DNA from: Opitutaceae bacterium
Lineage (GTDB): Bacteria > Verrucomicrobiota > Verrucomicrobiia > Opitutales > Opitutaceae
NCBI GenBank assembly: GCA_028281165.1
Contig: JANQKI010000062.1
Location: 1 to 60,210 of the forward strand
Direction: 5' to 3'
Length of the DNA stretch: 60,210 bases
Shown in pieces: positions 30,385 to 36,153 of this stretch (positions are counted from its first letter, which is position 1; every line of letters begins with the position of its first letter). The notes under the pieces are model-generated. The model saw only the letters and a list, made by a program, of their open reading frames with translations, made no database searches and was not told where the DNA came from. The translations under genes and the position numbers were made by a program.

Positions 30385-30479
30385 TGGGTTTGGGATCGGT
30401 ATTAGATTCTTTAAATTCCCTCTATCCTTCGCCAAACAGTAACACAGGGGTAACATAATTTTTGTAGCTTGTGAGCTTA

Positions 30480-31982
30480 ATGAGAACAGAGCCTACACTT
30501 TTTGCATTAGTTTGCTGGTTATTGTCTCCTTGGCTCTCTTTGGCCCAGGATGCTGAAACCCGCCGTGTGGCTTTGGCCGAACTATTGGAAGAAGGGATCT
30601 ATCTACAGGAGGCGAAAGGGGATCTTGAGGGAGCTATGGCCGTGTATAGGAAGTTGCAGGCGCAGAGCGAAGTGGACCGTCAGTTTGCGGCCGAGGCGCA
30701 GTATAGATTAGCTACCTGTTATTTGGAAAAAGGCGAGAGACTGGCGGCTGTAGAATCCTTCGAGAAACTAGTGAACCTCTATGCCGACCAAGCGAAATGG
30801 GTCGAGGCGGCCCTTGAATACTTGCCCAAAGAATTTGAGCCGAACTATATTCCCTGGAGTCCTGGGGAAAGAACTGTGCTTAAGTGGCGGATGCCTACGG
30901 GCGCGCCTATAGGACAAATGGTCTACACGGTCGAAGAGGGAGAACGTGAGGGCGTCGCCTTTTGGAAGTTTAGCGGTCATGGCTATATTTCCCAGCGATT
31001 GCATCTCGTCACAGAAGTCGAAAAAATCAGTCTAGAGCCGCTTCACTCCCATTTTTATCAAACTTTGAGTGGCATGTTCTATTCGCAGTTCAAGGATGGT
31101 GAAATAATCACACTCGATACTCGGGATGACACGGAGAAGAAAGTGGTAACCGAAGGGCGAGTATATGATTTTCTGCAATTTCTTTTTATGCTGAGACAGA
31201 TCTCTCCCGAGATTGGAGGCAGGATTGAGCTTCCGGTTTACAGTCCGACTGAGAAAATTTCCCGTTTAGTTCCCATTGAAGTAATAGGAAATGAAATTTT
31301 GGATACTAAAATAGGTCAATTGGAAGCCTATAAAATAAAGTCGAAATACGAAGGAATAGAAGCTACGTATTGGATATCCAATGATGAGAAACGTCGATTG
31401 CTGAAGGTCCAAATGGGCGGTCTCGAAGGAAGCATTGTTCGATTCGAGAAGATAAACTACGGTCAATTCAAGGTCTATCACGGCGAGAATAGCCTCTACT
31501 CTATCGAGTATCCGGAATCTTGGGATATAATGAATTCATTCGTTTTGCAAAAGACCGACATTGATCGTATTTTCTTTCTAGATCCGAAAACTCCCGACGA
31601 GAGTTATCTATATTCGAGACGCATAGATACTCATAATTTCGAAGAAGAGTTAAGCCTCGATGAGGATATCGCTATGGATCAGATTGCTGATTCCATTCTA
31701 TCAATCTATGGAAAAAGAATTTCCAGTTTCGAACTTCTCGGCGATGGAATCGAGAGTCTAACAATCGATGATCGTCCTGCTCGTTTGTTTCTGGCGAAAG
31801 GCGAAGATAATGGGGAAAAAATCAAATTCATGAGAGGAGTGATCTCCCATAACGATATGCTCTTTCACTTCTCCTGTCGCAAACGAGAGGCGGATTTCGA
31901 TGAATCCATTGACGTTTACCGACAGATATTCAATTCCATTAGATTTAGGCAGGAGGATATTGCCGTGAAGGGAGAAAGCTGA
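30480..31982 (+). CDS. secreted TPR-DUF3108-PsbP-like protein (first paralogue)
   Basis: About 500 residues. A signal peptide covers the first 23 residues (TLFALVCWLLSPWLSLAQ). TPR-like helices run to about residue 115, with LLEEGIYLQEAKGDLEGAM. A DUF3108-like beta domain follows, ending in the typical 'YWISNDEKRRLLKVQMG'. The C-terminal 160 residues start with YSIEYPESWDI and resemble a PsbP/DUF1795-like fold. I place the start at the ATG 30480, since the GTG at 30471 adds only three residues. A close paralogue follows after 3 bp, then a histidine kinase and a response regulator. A periplasmic sensing or accessory role for that two-component system is inferred from context only. Confidence 0.75.
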   Translation: MRTEPTLFALVCWLLSPWLSLAQDAETRRVALAELLEEGIYLQEAKGDLEGAMAVYRKLQAQSEVDRQFAAEAQYRLATCYLEKGERLAAVESFEKLVNLYADQAKWVEAALEYLPKEFEPNYIPWSPGERTVLKWRMPTGAPIGQMVYTVEEGEREGVAFWKFSGHGYISQRLHLVTEVEKISLEPLHSHFYQTLSGMFYSQFKDGEIITLDTRDDTEKKVVTEGRVYDFLQFLFMLRQISPEIGGRIELPVYSPTEKISRLVPIEVIGNEILDTKIGQLEAYKIKSKYEGIEATYWISNDEKRRLLKVQMGGLEGSIVRFEKINYGQFKVYHGENSLYSIEYPESWDIMNSFVLQKTDIDRIFFLDPKTPDESYLYSRRIDTHNFEEELSLDEDIAMDQIADSILSIYGKRISSFELLGDGIESLTIDDRPARLFLAKGEDNGEKIKFMRGVISHNDMLFHFSCRKREADFDESIDVYRQIFNSIRFRQEDIAVKGES

Positions 31983-31985
31983 GAT

Positions 31986-33647
31986 ATGACTAGAACCTAT
32001 CCCAACCCTTGTCTTGGCGCCGCTGAGAGCAGTTTTGGTTCAGAGCAAGGCGTGCTTGAAAAGCGAATACCTATCGGTATTTGTTTTCAAACAGAACGCA
32101 GCTCTGGGCCAAAAGAGCCTCAGCCCCAAAGGGTTTCTCGCGCAACGGCGTTCAAGACAAGGGTTGGGATAGGTTCTAACCTGAAAAGAAGCGCCCGATT
32201 CGTTTCCCTTTGTTTTCTGATTTGCAATATTCTCAGTTCTGAAAATGTGTATTCACAAATTAATGCAGATATTGTCTCAATGGACGATGCGCTTGAAGAA
32301 GCAGTCTATCTTCAGGAAGCGAAAGGAGATCTAGATGGAGCGATCGTTTTATTCAATCGGATTGTTGAAAGCGATAAAGCTGCTCGTCCGCTTGCGGCGG
32401 AAGCTCAGTTTAGACTAGCTGTTTGCTTGTTGGAGTCGGGCTTGGAAAATCGGGCTATGAAGACTCTCGAAACGCTTGTCGATCAGTTCCCCGATCAAAC
32501 TGTGTGGGTTGAAGCTGCCCTAAAGCGTTTGCCGCGAGAATTCGAGCCAACGATTGTTCCTTGGAAGGATGGGGAGCGGCTCGCGTTCGAGGTGCGTAAT
32601 TCGAACAACAATATCGTTGGTGTATCCACATTTGTGATCCGCGCTTCAGACGATGGGGAAAATGCGACTTGGAATGCATTCCATTCCGAAGTTATTGACA
32701 GCGTGGTTTTTCACGCATTTGTGGCCTTTGATCAGCTTTCCTTCAAGCCAACAAAAGGAGCGATGTCTCACAGTATTTTGGGCAAGGCAAAGAGCGAATA
32801 TCGTGACCAGGAAATAGTCGCTTCCTATGAAGGGCACGATGGGGAGAGATCATATTCCTTTGAGGGAAAGGTGTTGGATAACGAGCAAGCAATCTATTTT
32901 CTTAGGCAGCTGCCAATCGAGGTTGGTTTCAAAACGGAATTCAGAGTTTTTGTCGCCCTGTCTGGAGTCGTTGCCACCATCGGGGCGGAAATCAAGAGTG
33001 TTGAAAAACTGGATACAATATTTGGTGAAATCGAGACCTATCGTGTTGCGCTGAATGTCATGGGATCCATTCAGACCTACTGGATTTCTGCGGACGCCTT
33101 AAGGAGATTCGTTAAAATGGAGATAAGCGGAATGGTTGCCATCCTTTCAAATTCCCAGTTGCTGGATGAAAACGGTATGGCTCACTTCACAAACGAGGAA
33201 CTAGGCTATTCGATCGGCTATCCTGGCGCCTGGACATTTGTAGAGAGGTCGAACCCGGGAAAGGGCAATCTTCAACGGATTAACTTTGGATGGCCGCAAA
33301 AGCAAATTTCATGCGGTTTGGTCGTCAGATCGGCCAAAAACACTGGTGAAAATCTTGCTACTGAAGTTGAAAAGCTGGCCCAAGAATCCCTTGAGCAGAA
33401 CTTAAGGGCTCTCCATAATTGTCAGTTGATAGAAGGCACTTGGCAGGAACTGATGCTAGGAGAGGTTCCGGCTCGCAGTTTTTCCGCCAAGCATGAGTCG
33501 AGGGGGGGGGCAAGGAAATATTATAGAGGAGTGGCTTACGATGGCGAACGCGTCTTTATTTTTACAGGGCGCTCTAAGCCAGAGGATTTCGATGTTTTCG
33601 AGCGAGAGTGCGCTAGGATCTTCAAGTCGATCCGGATGCATCTTTAG
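31986..33647 (+). CDS. secreted TPR-DUF3108-PsbP-like protein (second paralogue), with in-frame element insertion at the N-terminus
   Basis: The frame is 553 codons, but residues 3-64 derive from an inserted palindromic element (31991-32178). Without those 62 codons the protein starts MTNLKRSARF and runs directly into a signal peptide (FVSLCFLICNILS, ending VYSQ). The mature part has the same TPR, DUF3108-like and PsbP-like layout as the gene before it, including ALEEAVYLQEAKGDLDGAI. In the present sequence the signal peptide would begin near residue 66, which should impair export unless an internal start is used. A run of nine G at 33502-33510 lies in the last domain. The gene is 3 bp after its paralogue and 3 bp before the kinase. 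Confidence 0.75.
   Translation: MTRTYPNPCLGAAESSFGSEQGVLEKRIPIGICFQTERSSGPKEPQPQRVSRATAFKTRVGIGSNLKRSARFVSLCFLICNILSSENVYSQINADIVSMDDALEEAVYLQEAKGDLDGAIVLFNRIVESDKAARPLAAEAQFRLAVCLLESGLENRAMKTLETLVDQFPDQTVWVEAALKRLPREFEPTIVPWKDGERLAFEVRNSNNNIVGVSTFVIRASDDGENATWNAFHSEVIDSVVFHAFVAFDQLSFKPTKGAMSHSILGKAKSEYRDQEIVASYEGHDGERSYSFEGKVLDNEQAIYFLRQLPIEVGFKTEFRVFVALSGVVATIGAEIKSVEKLDTIFGEIETYRVALNVMGSIQTYWISADALRRFVKMEISGMVAILSNSQLLDENGMAHFTNEELGYSIGYPGAWTFVERSNPGKGNLQRINFGWPQKQISCGLVVRSAKNTGENLATEVEKLAQESLEQNLRALHNCQLIEGTWQELMLGEVPARSFSAKHESRGGARKYYRGVAYDGERVFIFTGRSKPEDFDVFERECARIFKSIRMHL
31991..32178. mobile_element. TA-flanked palindromic MITE-like element
   Basis: The arms TAGAACCTATCCC... at 31991-32016 and their exact inverted copy at 32153-32178 are 26 bp long including TA at both ends. 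The interior also pairs loosely. Element plus one TA is 186 bp, exactly 62 codons. No transposase frame is present. TA target duplication is the signature of the IS630/Tc1-mariner superfamily, so a MITE of that group is the best reading. Confidence 0.8.
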
Positions 33648-33650
33648 GCT

Positions 33651-35486
33651 ATGGGTTTCCTGGGAAATTCGTATTCAGAGGGATTTGGCCAGAGAAACAT
33701 CTGGATAACGCTTTCATTGCTTACCGCTGCGGTGCTTGCGCCAACCGTATGTGTTCTCTGGCTTGTGCAAAAGGCGGCTCGGAATGAACGACTTGCTGTG
33801 ATTAGCCTCCTCGAAGAAACAAGAGCTAACCAGGTCGCGTTAGGGATTGAGCGTGTGCAAAATTATGTCAGGGACTTGACGGACTCCAGTCGATCTCTGA
33901 CCTTGGACACACCACCTTCCGTCAGCTTTTTCAAGCTAGTCGAAGCTGGCTTTGCTGAAAGCGTCATTGTTAGAGACCAGGATAAAAACCTTCTCTATCC
34001 AAATTTAGGTTCAAGTATTCAAAATTTGGGTTCAAATAACGAAACTGCCGATGCAAGCAGGATTTTGAATGAGATACGAGCCCTCATTAAGGCTGGCGAA
34101 ATTGAAGAGCCCTTGCGAAAGATTGGCGCTATCCTTAATGATGAAAAGCAGTATGGCGCATACATTCTGCCAGACGGCCGTCATGCTATCCCGATGATGG
34201 CTATGATAGTTGTCGAGTTGACCGAAATGCTGGAAAATGGTCTTTCAGGGCAAGTAGAAGATCTTGGCAGAATCGTAAAAAACTACTCGATACGAATACC
34301 GTCATCTCAGAGACGCTTCTTTTTGAGAAAGTATTTGTCGCATCAAGAGGATTCGTTGGCTAGCAAGCTCCTTTACGCCGAAACCATTGCGATACAGTGG
34401 CAAGGTGGTAATCAAGAAAACAATACAGATAAATCGAAAGGGAATTTTATTCTTCTACCTGTCGATTCGAGTTTGAACCTCGATTTGCTGATTAGCCGTG
34501 AAACTTTCCAAACCAGGGTAAATGATCATCTTTCAGCCGGCATATCTACCGATGATGGAAAAACGCGATTGATTGTTCTTAGGAGCGATGCGGTTGTTGA
34601 AAAGGGCGTGGAATTGATAGCTAAAGATATGGGAGGCGTTCTAAGCGGTTGGAAGGTATCTCTATTCGCTGATTCAGCTAGAGCTTTGGAGGACGTCAAT
34701 TCGCACGTTATCTTATACGTTTGGGTTGGTTTGCTTGTTATCGCCATTTCCTTATCTTTGATGATTGTCGTGATCGCGCTGATACGGAAACAGTCAAGCG
34801 TGGCGCAGCTAAAGAATGATTTGGTGGCCACCGTTTCTCACGAGCTCAAGACGCCTGTCGCTTCCATTCGATTGCTGGTTGACACGCTGCTCGACGAAAA
34901 GAAAGACGATTCAAACCGAACTAAGGAATACTTGGAGCTTATTTCTAAGGAGAACAAGCGTTTGGGCGGATTGATTGAGAACTTTCTTTCTTTTTCGCGA
35001 ATGGAGAGAAACAAAAACAGTTTCATGCTTCAGCCCTCTTCCGTGAACGACCTTGTTTCAGAGACCGTTGCGACCTTTCAAGATCGATTTGCGAATCGGA
35101 AATTGGATCTGTCCGTCGATGTGGAGGAGGGGATTAGCCCCGTCAAGGCCGACGCGGAGGCCTTGCAGACGGCTTTGGGGAATTTGCTCGAGAACGCCTA
35201 CAAGTATAGTGGGGATGAAAAGCGAATTTCCCTAAAGGCTCGAAATGGGAATGGAAGCGTTGCCTTTGAAGTGAAGGATAATGGAATTGGCATCGCTAAA
35301 AAGGACCAAAGGAAGGTCTTCCATCGTTTCTACCAAGGAAATCGAAAACTGTCCGGCCACGTGGGCGGTGTTGGTCTTGGACTTAGTATCGTGTCGTTTA
35401 TAGTATCCAAGCATAAAGGACGGATAGAGTTGGAAAGCGAGGAGGGGGAGGGCAGCTTATTTAGGCTGATTATTCCAAATGCATAG
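33651..35486 (+). CDS. sensor histidine kinase
   Basis: A 611-residue membrane kinase. A first membrane helix lies at about residues 18-40, a large periplasmic sensor region of about 310 residues follows, and a second helix lies at about 353-380. The cytoplasmic part has a HisKA domain with the phospho-accepting H397 in 'ATVSHELKTPVASIRLL', then an HATPase_c domain with the N box 'LGNLLENAYKYSG', the G1 box 'VKDNGIGI' and the G2 box GGVGLGLSIV. No HAMP domain is clear. It starts 3 bp after the second TPR-DUF3108 protein and overlaps the response regulator by 8 bp. This strongly suggests that those secreted proteins serve the same pathway. Confidence 0.94.
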   Translation: MGFLGNSYSEGFGQRNIWITLSLLTAAVLAPTVCVLWLVQKAARNERLAVISLLEETRANQVALGIERVQNYVRDLTDSSRSLTLDTPPSVSFFKLVEAGFAESVIVRDQDKNLLYPNLGSSIQNLGSNNETADASRILNEIRALIKAGEIEEPLRKIGAILNDEKQYGAYILPDGRHAIPMMAMIVVELTEMLENGLSGQVEDLGRIVKNYSIRIPSSQRRFFLRKYLSHQEDSLASKLLYAETIAIQWQGGNQENNTDKSKGNFILLPVDSSLNLDLLISRETFQTRVNDHLSAGISTDDGKTRLIVLRSDAVVEKGVELIAKDMGGVLSGWKVSLFADSARALEDVNSHVILYVWVGLLVIAISLSLMIVVIALIRKQSSVAQLKNDLVATVSHELKTPVASIRLLVDTLLDEKKDDSNRTKEYLELISKENKRLGGLIENFLSFSRMERNKNSFMLQPSSVNDLVSETVATFQDRFANRKLDLSVDVEEGISPVKADAEALQTALGNLLENAYKYSGDEKRISLKARNGNGSVAFEVKDNGIGIAKKDQRKVFHRFYQGNRKLSGHVGGVGLGLSIVSFIVSKHKGRIELESEEGEGSLFRLIIPNA

Positions 35487-36153
35487 AATTCTGATAATCG
35501 AAGACGATCCAGCTCTGCAAAGGGGTCTGAAGGATAATTTTGTCGATGAGGGGTATGAAGTTCAAGCGGCTGGCGACGGAGCAGAAGGGTTGGATTATGC
35601 CTTGGAGCATGGAGCAGACCTGATTCTGCTCGATATCATGTTGCCCAAGATAAATGGATACGAAATCTGTCGTTCCGTTCGTCTTGAAGGTTACGACATG
35701 CCTATCATTATGCTAACGGCAAAGGGCCAGGAGAGCGACATTATTCGAGGCTTGGAGATGGGCGCTGACGATTATGTTACCAAACCTTTCAGCATTCGCG
35801 AACTCATCGCTCGAGTAAAAGCCTTCCTAAGACGTCATAAATCGACGGATACGGAGCAATTTCAATTCGGCAGCTGCACGCTCGATCGCCAGTCTTGTTG
35901 CTGTTTTAAGGATGGCAAAGACTTGGGATTAACGAACAAGGAATATGGCCTTCTTGAATATTTCCTTCTCAACGCGGGGAAAGCGCTCACTCGGACGAGC
36001 ATAATGAATCATGTCTGGGGCAACAGCATTATGGTTACTCAGCGAAGTGTGGATCGTTGCGTCACAACCCTTCGTTCAAAAGTCGAAGAGACTCCATCGA
36101 GGCCCGAGTATATCAAAACGATTCGCGATGTGGGCTATCGCTTTGAGCTATAG
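35479..36153 (+). CDS. OmpR/PhoB family response regulator
   Basis: A 224-residue response regulator. The receiver domain (1-115) has the acidic pocket EDD at 8-10, the phosphorylated D52 in LLDIMLP, T near LTAKG and K in VTKPF. The winged-helix domain (about 128-224) has 'LTNKEYGLLEYFLLNAGKAL' (20 residues) and YIKTIRDVGYRF, both typical. It overlaps the kinase by 8 bp, so it is its cognate partner. Its targets are unknown; regulation of its own operon is a common possibility. It is convergent with the DUF3500 gene, with an 8-bp gap. Confidence 0.96.
   Translation: MHRILIIEDDPALQRGLKDNFVDEGYEVQAAGDGAEGLDYALEHGADLILLDIMLPKINGYEICRSVRLEGYDMPIIMLTAKGQESDIIRGLEMGADDYVTKPFSIRELIARVKAFLRRHKSTDTEQFQFGSCTLDRQSCCCFKDGKDLGLTNKEYGLLEYFLLNAGKALTRTSIMNHVWGNSIMVTQRSVDRCVTTLRSKVEETPSRPEYIKTIRDVGYRFEL

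Follow-up and report, generated by a model that had tools for sequence, protein, structure and literature searches.

What becomes of a gene for a secreted protein when a mobile element settles between its start codon and its signal peptide? The question is raised by a gene at 31986–33647 (plus strand) of a 60,210-nt stretch of an Opitutaceae bacterium genome (contig JANQKI010000062.1; this whole stretch is called the window here), which has 553 codons and encodes a TPR-type protein with a signal-like sequence. The first-pass annotation had described a MITE-like element with a TA target duplication, inserted in frame at codons 2–3 of this gene: 188 bp long, bounded by TA and with inverted ends that match perfectly over 26 bp, directly after ATGAC. 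An inverted-repeat search agrees: the element occupies 31991–32178 (plus strand, both TAs included), starting 5 bases inside the ORF, and its 26-nt arms at 31991–32016 (beginning with TAG) and 32153–32178 (closing with CTA) are 100% complementary across a spacer of 136 nt and are the only inverted pair reported within 31800–32500. With the TA duplicated, the net insertion is 186 bp, or 62 codons; this is the multiple of three that had been noted, and the 553-aa frame runs uninterrupted through the element. Removing the element in silico gives ATG ACT AAC CTG AAA AGA (MTNLKR), again as annotated.

The annotation had suggested looking for the same locus without the element in related genomes, and for further copies of the arm. 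Among 57 genomes searched, the bacterium's own (G000) included, one other of the same genus was found (G001). Its orthologue of the affected gene (490 codons) lies between the same neighbours in a DNA alignment (the upstream paralogue and the next downstream gene) and reads ATGACTAGTCTGAAAAGAAGC (MTSLKR) at the orthologous place, without the element or its 62 codons, with a downstream DNA identity of 82%. The G001 sequence GAAATGACTAGTCTGAAAAGAAGC is an exact empty site for the window arrangement, in which GATATGAC is followed by the element from TA to TA and then by ACCTGAAAAGAAGC; the alignment therefore shows that the TA was duplicated and 186 bp were added. In this sister species the target reads CTAG, with the duplicated TA at its centre. 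The arm occurs more than once: a 15-bp end gave 36 matches (at most two mismatches) in the own genome versus nine for a reversed-pattern control, and 26 versus 17 in G001, where the control is high. In blastn searches, the 188-bp query matched 23 times in the own genome (several of these being fragments of one copy or due to the palindrome of the element itself), five times in G001 and, at that sensitivity, not once in the other 55 genomes. With an exact empty site in the G001 orthologue and ends that are repeated at many loci, this stretch is a real mobile insertion, and it has the features of a MITE: short, multi-copy, with terminal inverted repeats and a target-site duplication, and without a transposase gene. 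The window, a single contig, comes from an assembly of 325 contigs, in which an artefact or chimera at the inverted repeat might be suspected; against the clean empty site with its TA duplication, the presence of the family at many loci of both assemblies and the independent in-frame cases described below, such an origin is hardly credible.

An empty site is likewise seen in G000 (C219) for a G001 copy (C15); the G001 locus corresponding to the C290 copy is not a clean empty site, and most other copies have no junction-spanning match in G001. One element with different ends (TAATACCATTTCTCC) is present as a single copy in G000 (C106; L097:1475-1747), and its G001 match is continuous over the empty site (C23:77454-77793).

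The long copies of the family are mostly 275–279 bp, both TAs included. The window copy lacks a hairpin arm of ∼90 bp that the long relatives bear at approximately 32130–32139 (plus strand; copies compared by eye), and, judged from the copies compared, it is an internally deleted form of a non-autonomous family of ∼278 bp. What it keeps is the conserved core arm (32017–32136, plus strand; our covariance model R1), with GAGCAAGGCG...AACGCAGCTC at 32043–32104. The 188 nt of the element are predicted to fold at −114 kcal/mol. Nine long copies (one truncated by a contig end) align to one predicted structure of 113 pairs, with 96.0% of cells paired and 46 of the 113 pairs changed on both sides, as compared with 16.0 after shuffling (none of 500 shuffles reached 46) and 9–15 with slid partners; in the more uniform set of 32 copies from g70 (three genomes of the order; 93% identity), just 6 of 94 pairs have two-sided changes. 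One inner arm resembles the other in inverted order, and the core model matches both strands in the C315 copy of G000 (L010:1452-1728). The outer arms of that copy share 18 of 34 bases with the window and 30 of 34 with each other, which looks like arm exchange or template switching. Three places in another genome (L117, L122 and L127 in G138) have ends near TAGAGCTGGTTTCAAAAG and are seemingly shorter than L109, as if without the second arm; possibly they lost it by separate internal deletions, comparable to that of the window copy.

A known RNA family was considered and rejected, with no element match at the Rfam 15 gathering score in the loci examined: there were no matches in the window, L005, L007 or L048, and in five further loci (L104, L105, L108, L109 and L110) the only match above gathering was a tRNA in L108, outside the element. 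Two sub-gathering matches were found in L109, one of them overlapping the element edge.

The annotation had further stated that the insertion adds 62 residues ahead of the signal peptide, which holds for a signal-like sequence recognised by hydropathy and by eye. The original signal-like region, NLKRSARFVSLCFLICNILSSENVYSQ, is at 32178–32258 (plus strand; hydropathy and comparison with G001), with a hydrophobic core at about 32193–32237. From this position the annotation had inferred that export is blocked or rerouted, the signal being buried and the protein staying cytoplasmic or anchored in the membrane. It is true that 62 residues preceding a signal are unusual, and that the signal would become internal. 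We nevertheless judge an export block unsupported, because the original core is the best hydrophobic N-terminal segment and the insert is less hydrophobic and carries a net charge of +4; the K/R residues preceding the core are also retained, and two more independent cases recur (below). An export block is thus unlikely. The reading we prefer, at about an even chance of being right, is that a non-autonomous element entered codons 2–3 and that the 62 residues are likely removed with the signal peptide, leaving the mature protein unchanged. In this reading, an element with predicted hairpin arms inserted at a TA in codons 2–3 of a predicted secreted-protein gene; the extension would be translated from the old ATG and, given its positive net charge and its lower hydrophobicity relative to the signal core, would stay cytoplasmic, while the kept signal would still be used and cleaved and the 62 residues discarded with it.

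Two other genes are affected in the same way. In the own genome (contig C81), a full-length copy is read in frame from a start codon 17 bp upstream, in an ORF of 387 codons whose product reads MKTLKT, 91 element-encoded residues and then RLIVSTISLFLLPWSFAS. Some sources call homologues of this protein alpha/beta hydrolase or PHB depolymerase, and all of the 120 listed except P0001 and P0002 cover 58–75% of the query, as expected if they are without the insert (N-termini were read for six). P0001, which is 97% identical to the C81 protein, retains the insert: there are 12 differences over 387 residues and none in the 91 that are element-encoded. In G001 (contig C11), a full-length copy (g1C11) is read in frame from a start codon 20 bp upstream, in an ORF of 366 codons whose product reads MKLKILN, 92 residues from the opposite strand of the element and then TLLISLGVLASAYSQ; the G000 homologue reads MKIKILN followed by TLLLSMAVTVSLAQ, and the empty site is exact at the DNA level. 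Compared with its G000 homologue (L331, C315), this TPR gene (L048:1348-2445) has no thioredoxin-like part at the C-terminal end, and ∼1 kb appears to be missing downstream. The gene may be decaying, and the missing thioredoxin part counts against full function.

All three insertions lie just ahead of a retained signal-like core (hydropathy and eye), in unrelated proteins, and we predict that all three added stretches, each less hydrophobic than the core behind it, are removed with the signal peptide. The added stretches have net charges of +4 (window), +8 (C81) and +12 (g1C11), and the best hydropathy windows fall on the original signal cores, some of them including a few edge residues of the insert in C81 and g1C11; the hydropathy maxima inside these two inserts (1.18 and 0.94) are not negligible. 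An in-frame gene insertion is seen in three of 16 copies of the window's own type (12 in the own genome, three in G001 and one in G460). Such leader sites, defined as in phase and before a signal-like core, make up ∼1.7% of the gene-sparing TA sites in the window, so that three in 16 has a P of about 0.002, a crude value from one window with the affected gene included. The repeated independent cases and the unchanged P0001 insert fit a tolerated position rather than knock-outs.

A tolerated position has to be weighed against silencing, the main rival: a hairpin 5 nt into the gene would block initiation, giving a near knock-out in which the extension is mostly irrelevant. The stable fold speaks for it, as the equilibrium fold leaves no base free from +7 to +20 in the window allele (mean unpaired 0.00, versus 0.49 in G001); −20 to −1 has a mean unpaired value of 0.37 versus 0.57, and the Shine-Dalgarno-like AGGTGAG of G001 is AGCTGAG in the window (by eye). 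However, +1 to +6, which holds the start codon, is less paired than its G001 counterpart (0.77 versus 0.45 unpaired), and knock-outs would not be expected to give three insertions that all stay open and in frame at equivalent positions, or an insert left unchanged in the diverged relative P0001. In addition, the TGA of the upstream paralogue (30471–31982, plus strand; DUF3108 and TPR, with a signal peptide at its start by eye) ends 3 nt ahead of the ATG of the affected gene, and coupled translation could open the hairpin. Silencing is therefore possible and rather doubtful; the hairpin probably lowers translation somewhat.

The open frame itself might be what is selected, as in the protein-coding palindromes (RPE) of Rickettsia, with the element adding a peptide to its hosts. 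One frame is indeed open in the window copy, C1, C81, C231 and g1C11, and all five have net insertions divisible by three. But all six frames are closed in 33 of 37 g70 copies, other copies in the own genome carry stops in the frame concerned, and g1C11 reads the opposite strand, all of which makes selection for one open frame very improbable. A coding role across the wider family is rejected on the same 33 g70 copies; because of them, we regard the open frame seen in the own family as a probable by-product, one that renders the leader position survivable.

Where the other copies lie bears on the preferred reading, in which the surviving copies would be those that spare the gene product: intergenic, inside stop codons or ahead of signal peptides. 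In six of the 16 own-type copies, the terminal TAG of the element serves as the stop for an ORF of 100 codons or more (6.2% expected), and the same holds for 10 of the 37 g70 copies (5.7% expected); combined, this is 16 of 53 copies as compared with about 6%, the expectation being computed from TA sites that spare genes. Binomial values are 3e-4 (own-type) and 3e-5 (g70), both rough since copies were not randomly sampled and genes were called by ORF length. At 17 stop-codon edges, the empty site also has TAA or TAG at that point in 15 and does not in one, and the remaining edge is at a contig end; most of these copies thus re-create the stop codon that they entered. ORFs broken after at least 100 codons were counted (breaks nearer the gene start fall outside this count) in one of the 16 own-type and two of the 37 g70 copies. 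The counts omit six G076 copies, whose coordinates are offset by two bases, and a putative G460 frame running through on the opposite strand. Three ORFs were not taken as genes: those that cross C1 (114 codons) and C231 (183 codons), and one that ends in C315 (180 codons). The site bias could come from the loss of damaging insertions, but a preference of the mobile machinery for such target sites would also give it. In G001 (C55; L050:1455-1644), a single element is found at the overlapping stops of two convergent genes, where the TAG at each end keeps both.

As for what moves the element, paired ends in G000, G001 and G076 are only ∼90–320 bp apart (by eye; 10 pairs measured), and no autonomous IS with the same ends was seen in these three genomes, of which G000 and G001 are drafts. 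A search for PF13358 in G000 was negative, as were searches for PF01609 in G000 and G001 (controls positive in three and nine of 14 genomes). Solo ends on three G000 contigs (C178, C243 and C270) and one of G001 (C72) look like remnants, and no transposase was recognised by eye in the ORFs beside them.

The core is found more widely than the ends. R1, built from 12 sequences, finds it in 10 of 177 genomes of the order, the own included (20 candidates scored per genome); the three g70 genomes are among these ten, with 17–18 matches each. Positions 3–20 of the ends agree at 10–12 of 18 among the window, C315 and g70, and at 2–9 of 18 between families (L097, G138, L129, L130, L200 and the rest), with ends found by a script that returned inner pairs rather than element ends for L163 and L184, and no pair of 15/20 for L105, L108, L110, L111 and L112, where the ends were read by eye. 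On this comparison, the predicted core is common to elements with unrelated ends in some genomes. The motif GAGCAAGGCG...AACGCNGCTC is retained in many elements; in exact form it has 38 matches in five of 387 genomes of the phylum (G000 three, G460 two, G076 20, G417 12 and G340 one), as compared with one for a reversed control. R1 matches neither the single G340 place nor the 10 listed of the 12 G417 places, which are therefore not counted as confirmed. The twelve G417 matches (L276-L299), nearly identical among the ten listed, are perhaps a separate single-arm repeat.

In a collection of species representatives, at least 116 stretches carry the motif, and R1 matched 48 of the 80 listed (E ≤1, E-values that are optimistic here as the loci were preselected by motif). 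Twelve of the 48 lie outside Opitutales records (e.g. Methylomicrobium, Marinobacter, Duganella and Planctomycetota; 22–49 bits), and in ten of these 12, 10–14 of 14 flanking bases are paired, a count that separates weakly: genuine g70 copies have 3–14 of 14, many with a one-base offset. We take a cross-phylum spread of the core as a lead. Eight pattern matches in viral contigs, none with an R1 match at E ≤1, were judged chance; the plasmid records searched gave no match, and a literature search with the core letters gave nothing relevant among the matches listed. In Duganella (L160 near 3001, minus strand), the GAGCAAGGCG...AACGCNGCTC hairpin occurs as three tandem, slightly different repeats. 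A tentative reading, which we consider rather unlikely, is a so far unnamed superfamily over several phyla that keeps a base-paired core (GAGC-AAGGCG...AACGC-N-GCTC, often as two mirrored arms) while swapping its ends. It would be moved by something that recognises the fold, other than an ordinary PF01609- or PF13358-type transposase, into gene-sparing sites, namely stop codons rewritten as TAG and a discarded leader before signal peptides. We rated this reading slightly lower because R1 missed the G340 place and the G417 places listed.

In-frame MITE fusions are already known, by the published descriptions of RPE, RU and QMITE. RPE in Rickettsia and RU-1/RU-2 in enterobacteria are described as small palindromic repeats fused in frame to protein genes (PMC10969869, PMC2759123, PMC2229807), a likeness to the present element; in contrast to these descriptions, we find no conserved frame or peptide across families, the insert precedes the signal core instead of lying inside it, in three independent cases, and other copies are mostly intergenic or in stop codons. 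The Correia/NEMIS element of Neisseria is described as a MITE with TA ends and duplication, a 24-bp TIR (26 bp here) and long and short forms, the short form without an internal piece having open frames and occurring in genes (PMC2229807). Compared by description only, it has in common with our family the TA ends and duplication and the internally shortened forms, whereas here full-length copies (91–92 codons) are also in frame and the conserved core is common to elements with unrelated ends. The pneumococcal RUP, for which IS630-Spn1 is the presumed mobiliser (PMC2229807), likewise shares (by description only) the TA target, the TIR and the lack of its own transposase, while here the own genome has no PF13358 (IS630-type) match and no long element with the same ends was seen. 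Insertions of QMITE2 in Coxiella are reported in frame or at gene 3′ ends, one of the latter having lengthened a gene (PMC5896051); such insertions are common to both, but in our set the stop stays at its original codon for 15 of 17 stop-codon edges (it does not at one, and one is not evaluable). A literature search by title, incomplete in coverage, found no leader or stop-codon insertion of such elements.

If the preferred reading is right, mobile DNA exploits two gene-neutral grounds within coding sequence: one is the stop codon, the other the leader ahead of a signal peptide, where any addition would be discarded at export. For annotation this would mean that the first 60–90 residues of some predicted secreted proteins are transposon-derived, here from an element family with strong covariation that is absent from Rfam 15 at the gathering score.

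The affected gene, open over its 553 codons, has a dN/dS of 0.175 against G001, which mostly reflects time before the insertion. It is followed in the window (33651–36153) by genes for a histidine kinase and then a response regulator, recognised by eye, which possibly form one operon with the paralogue pair.
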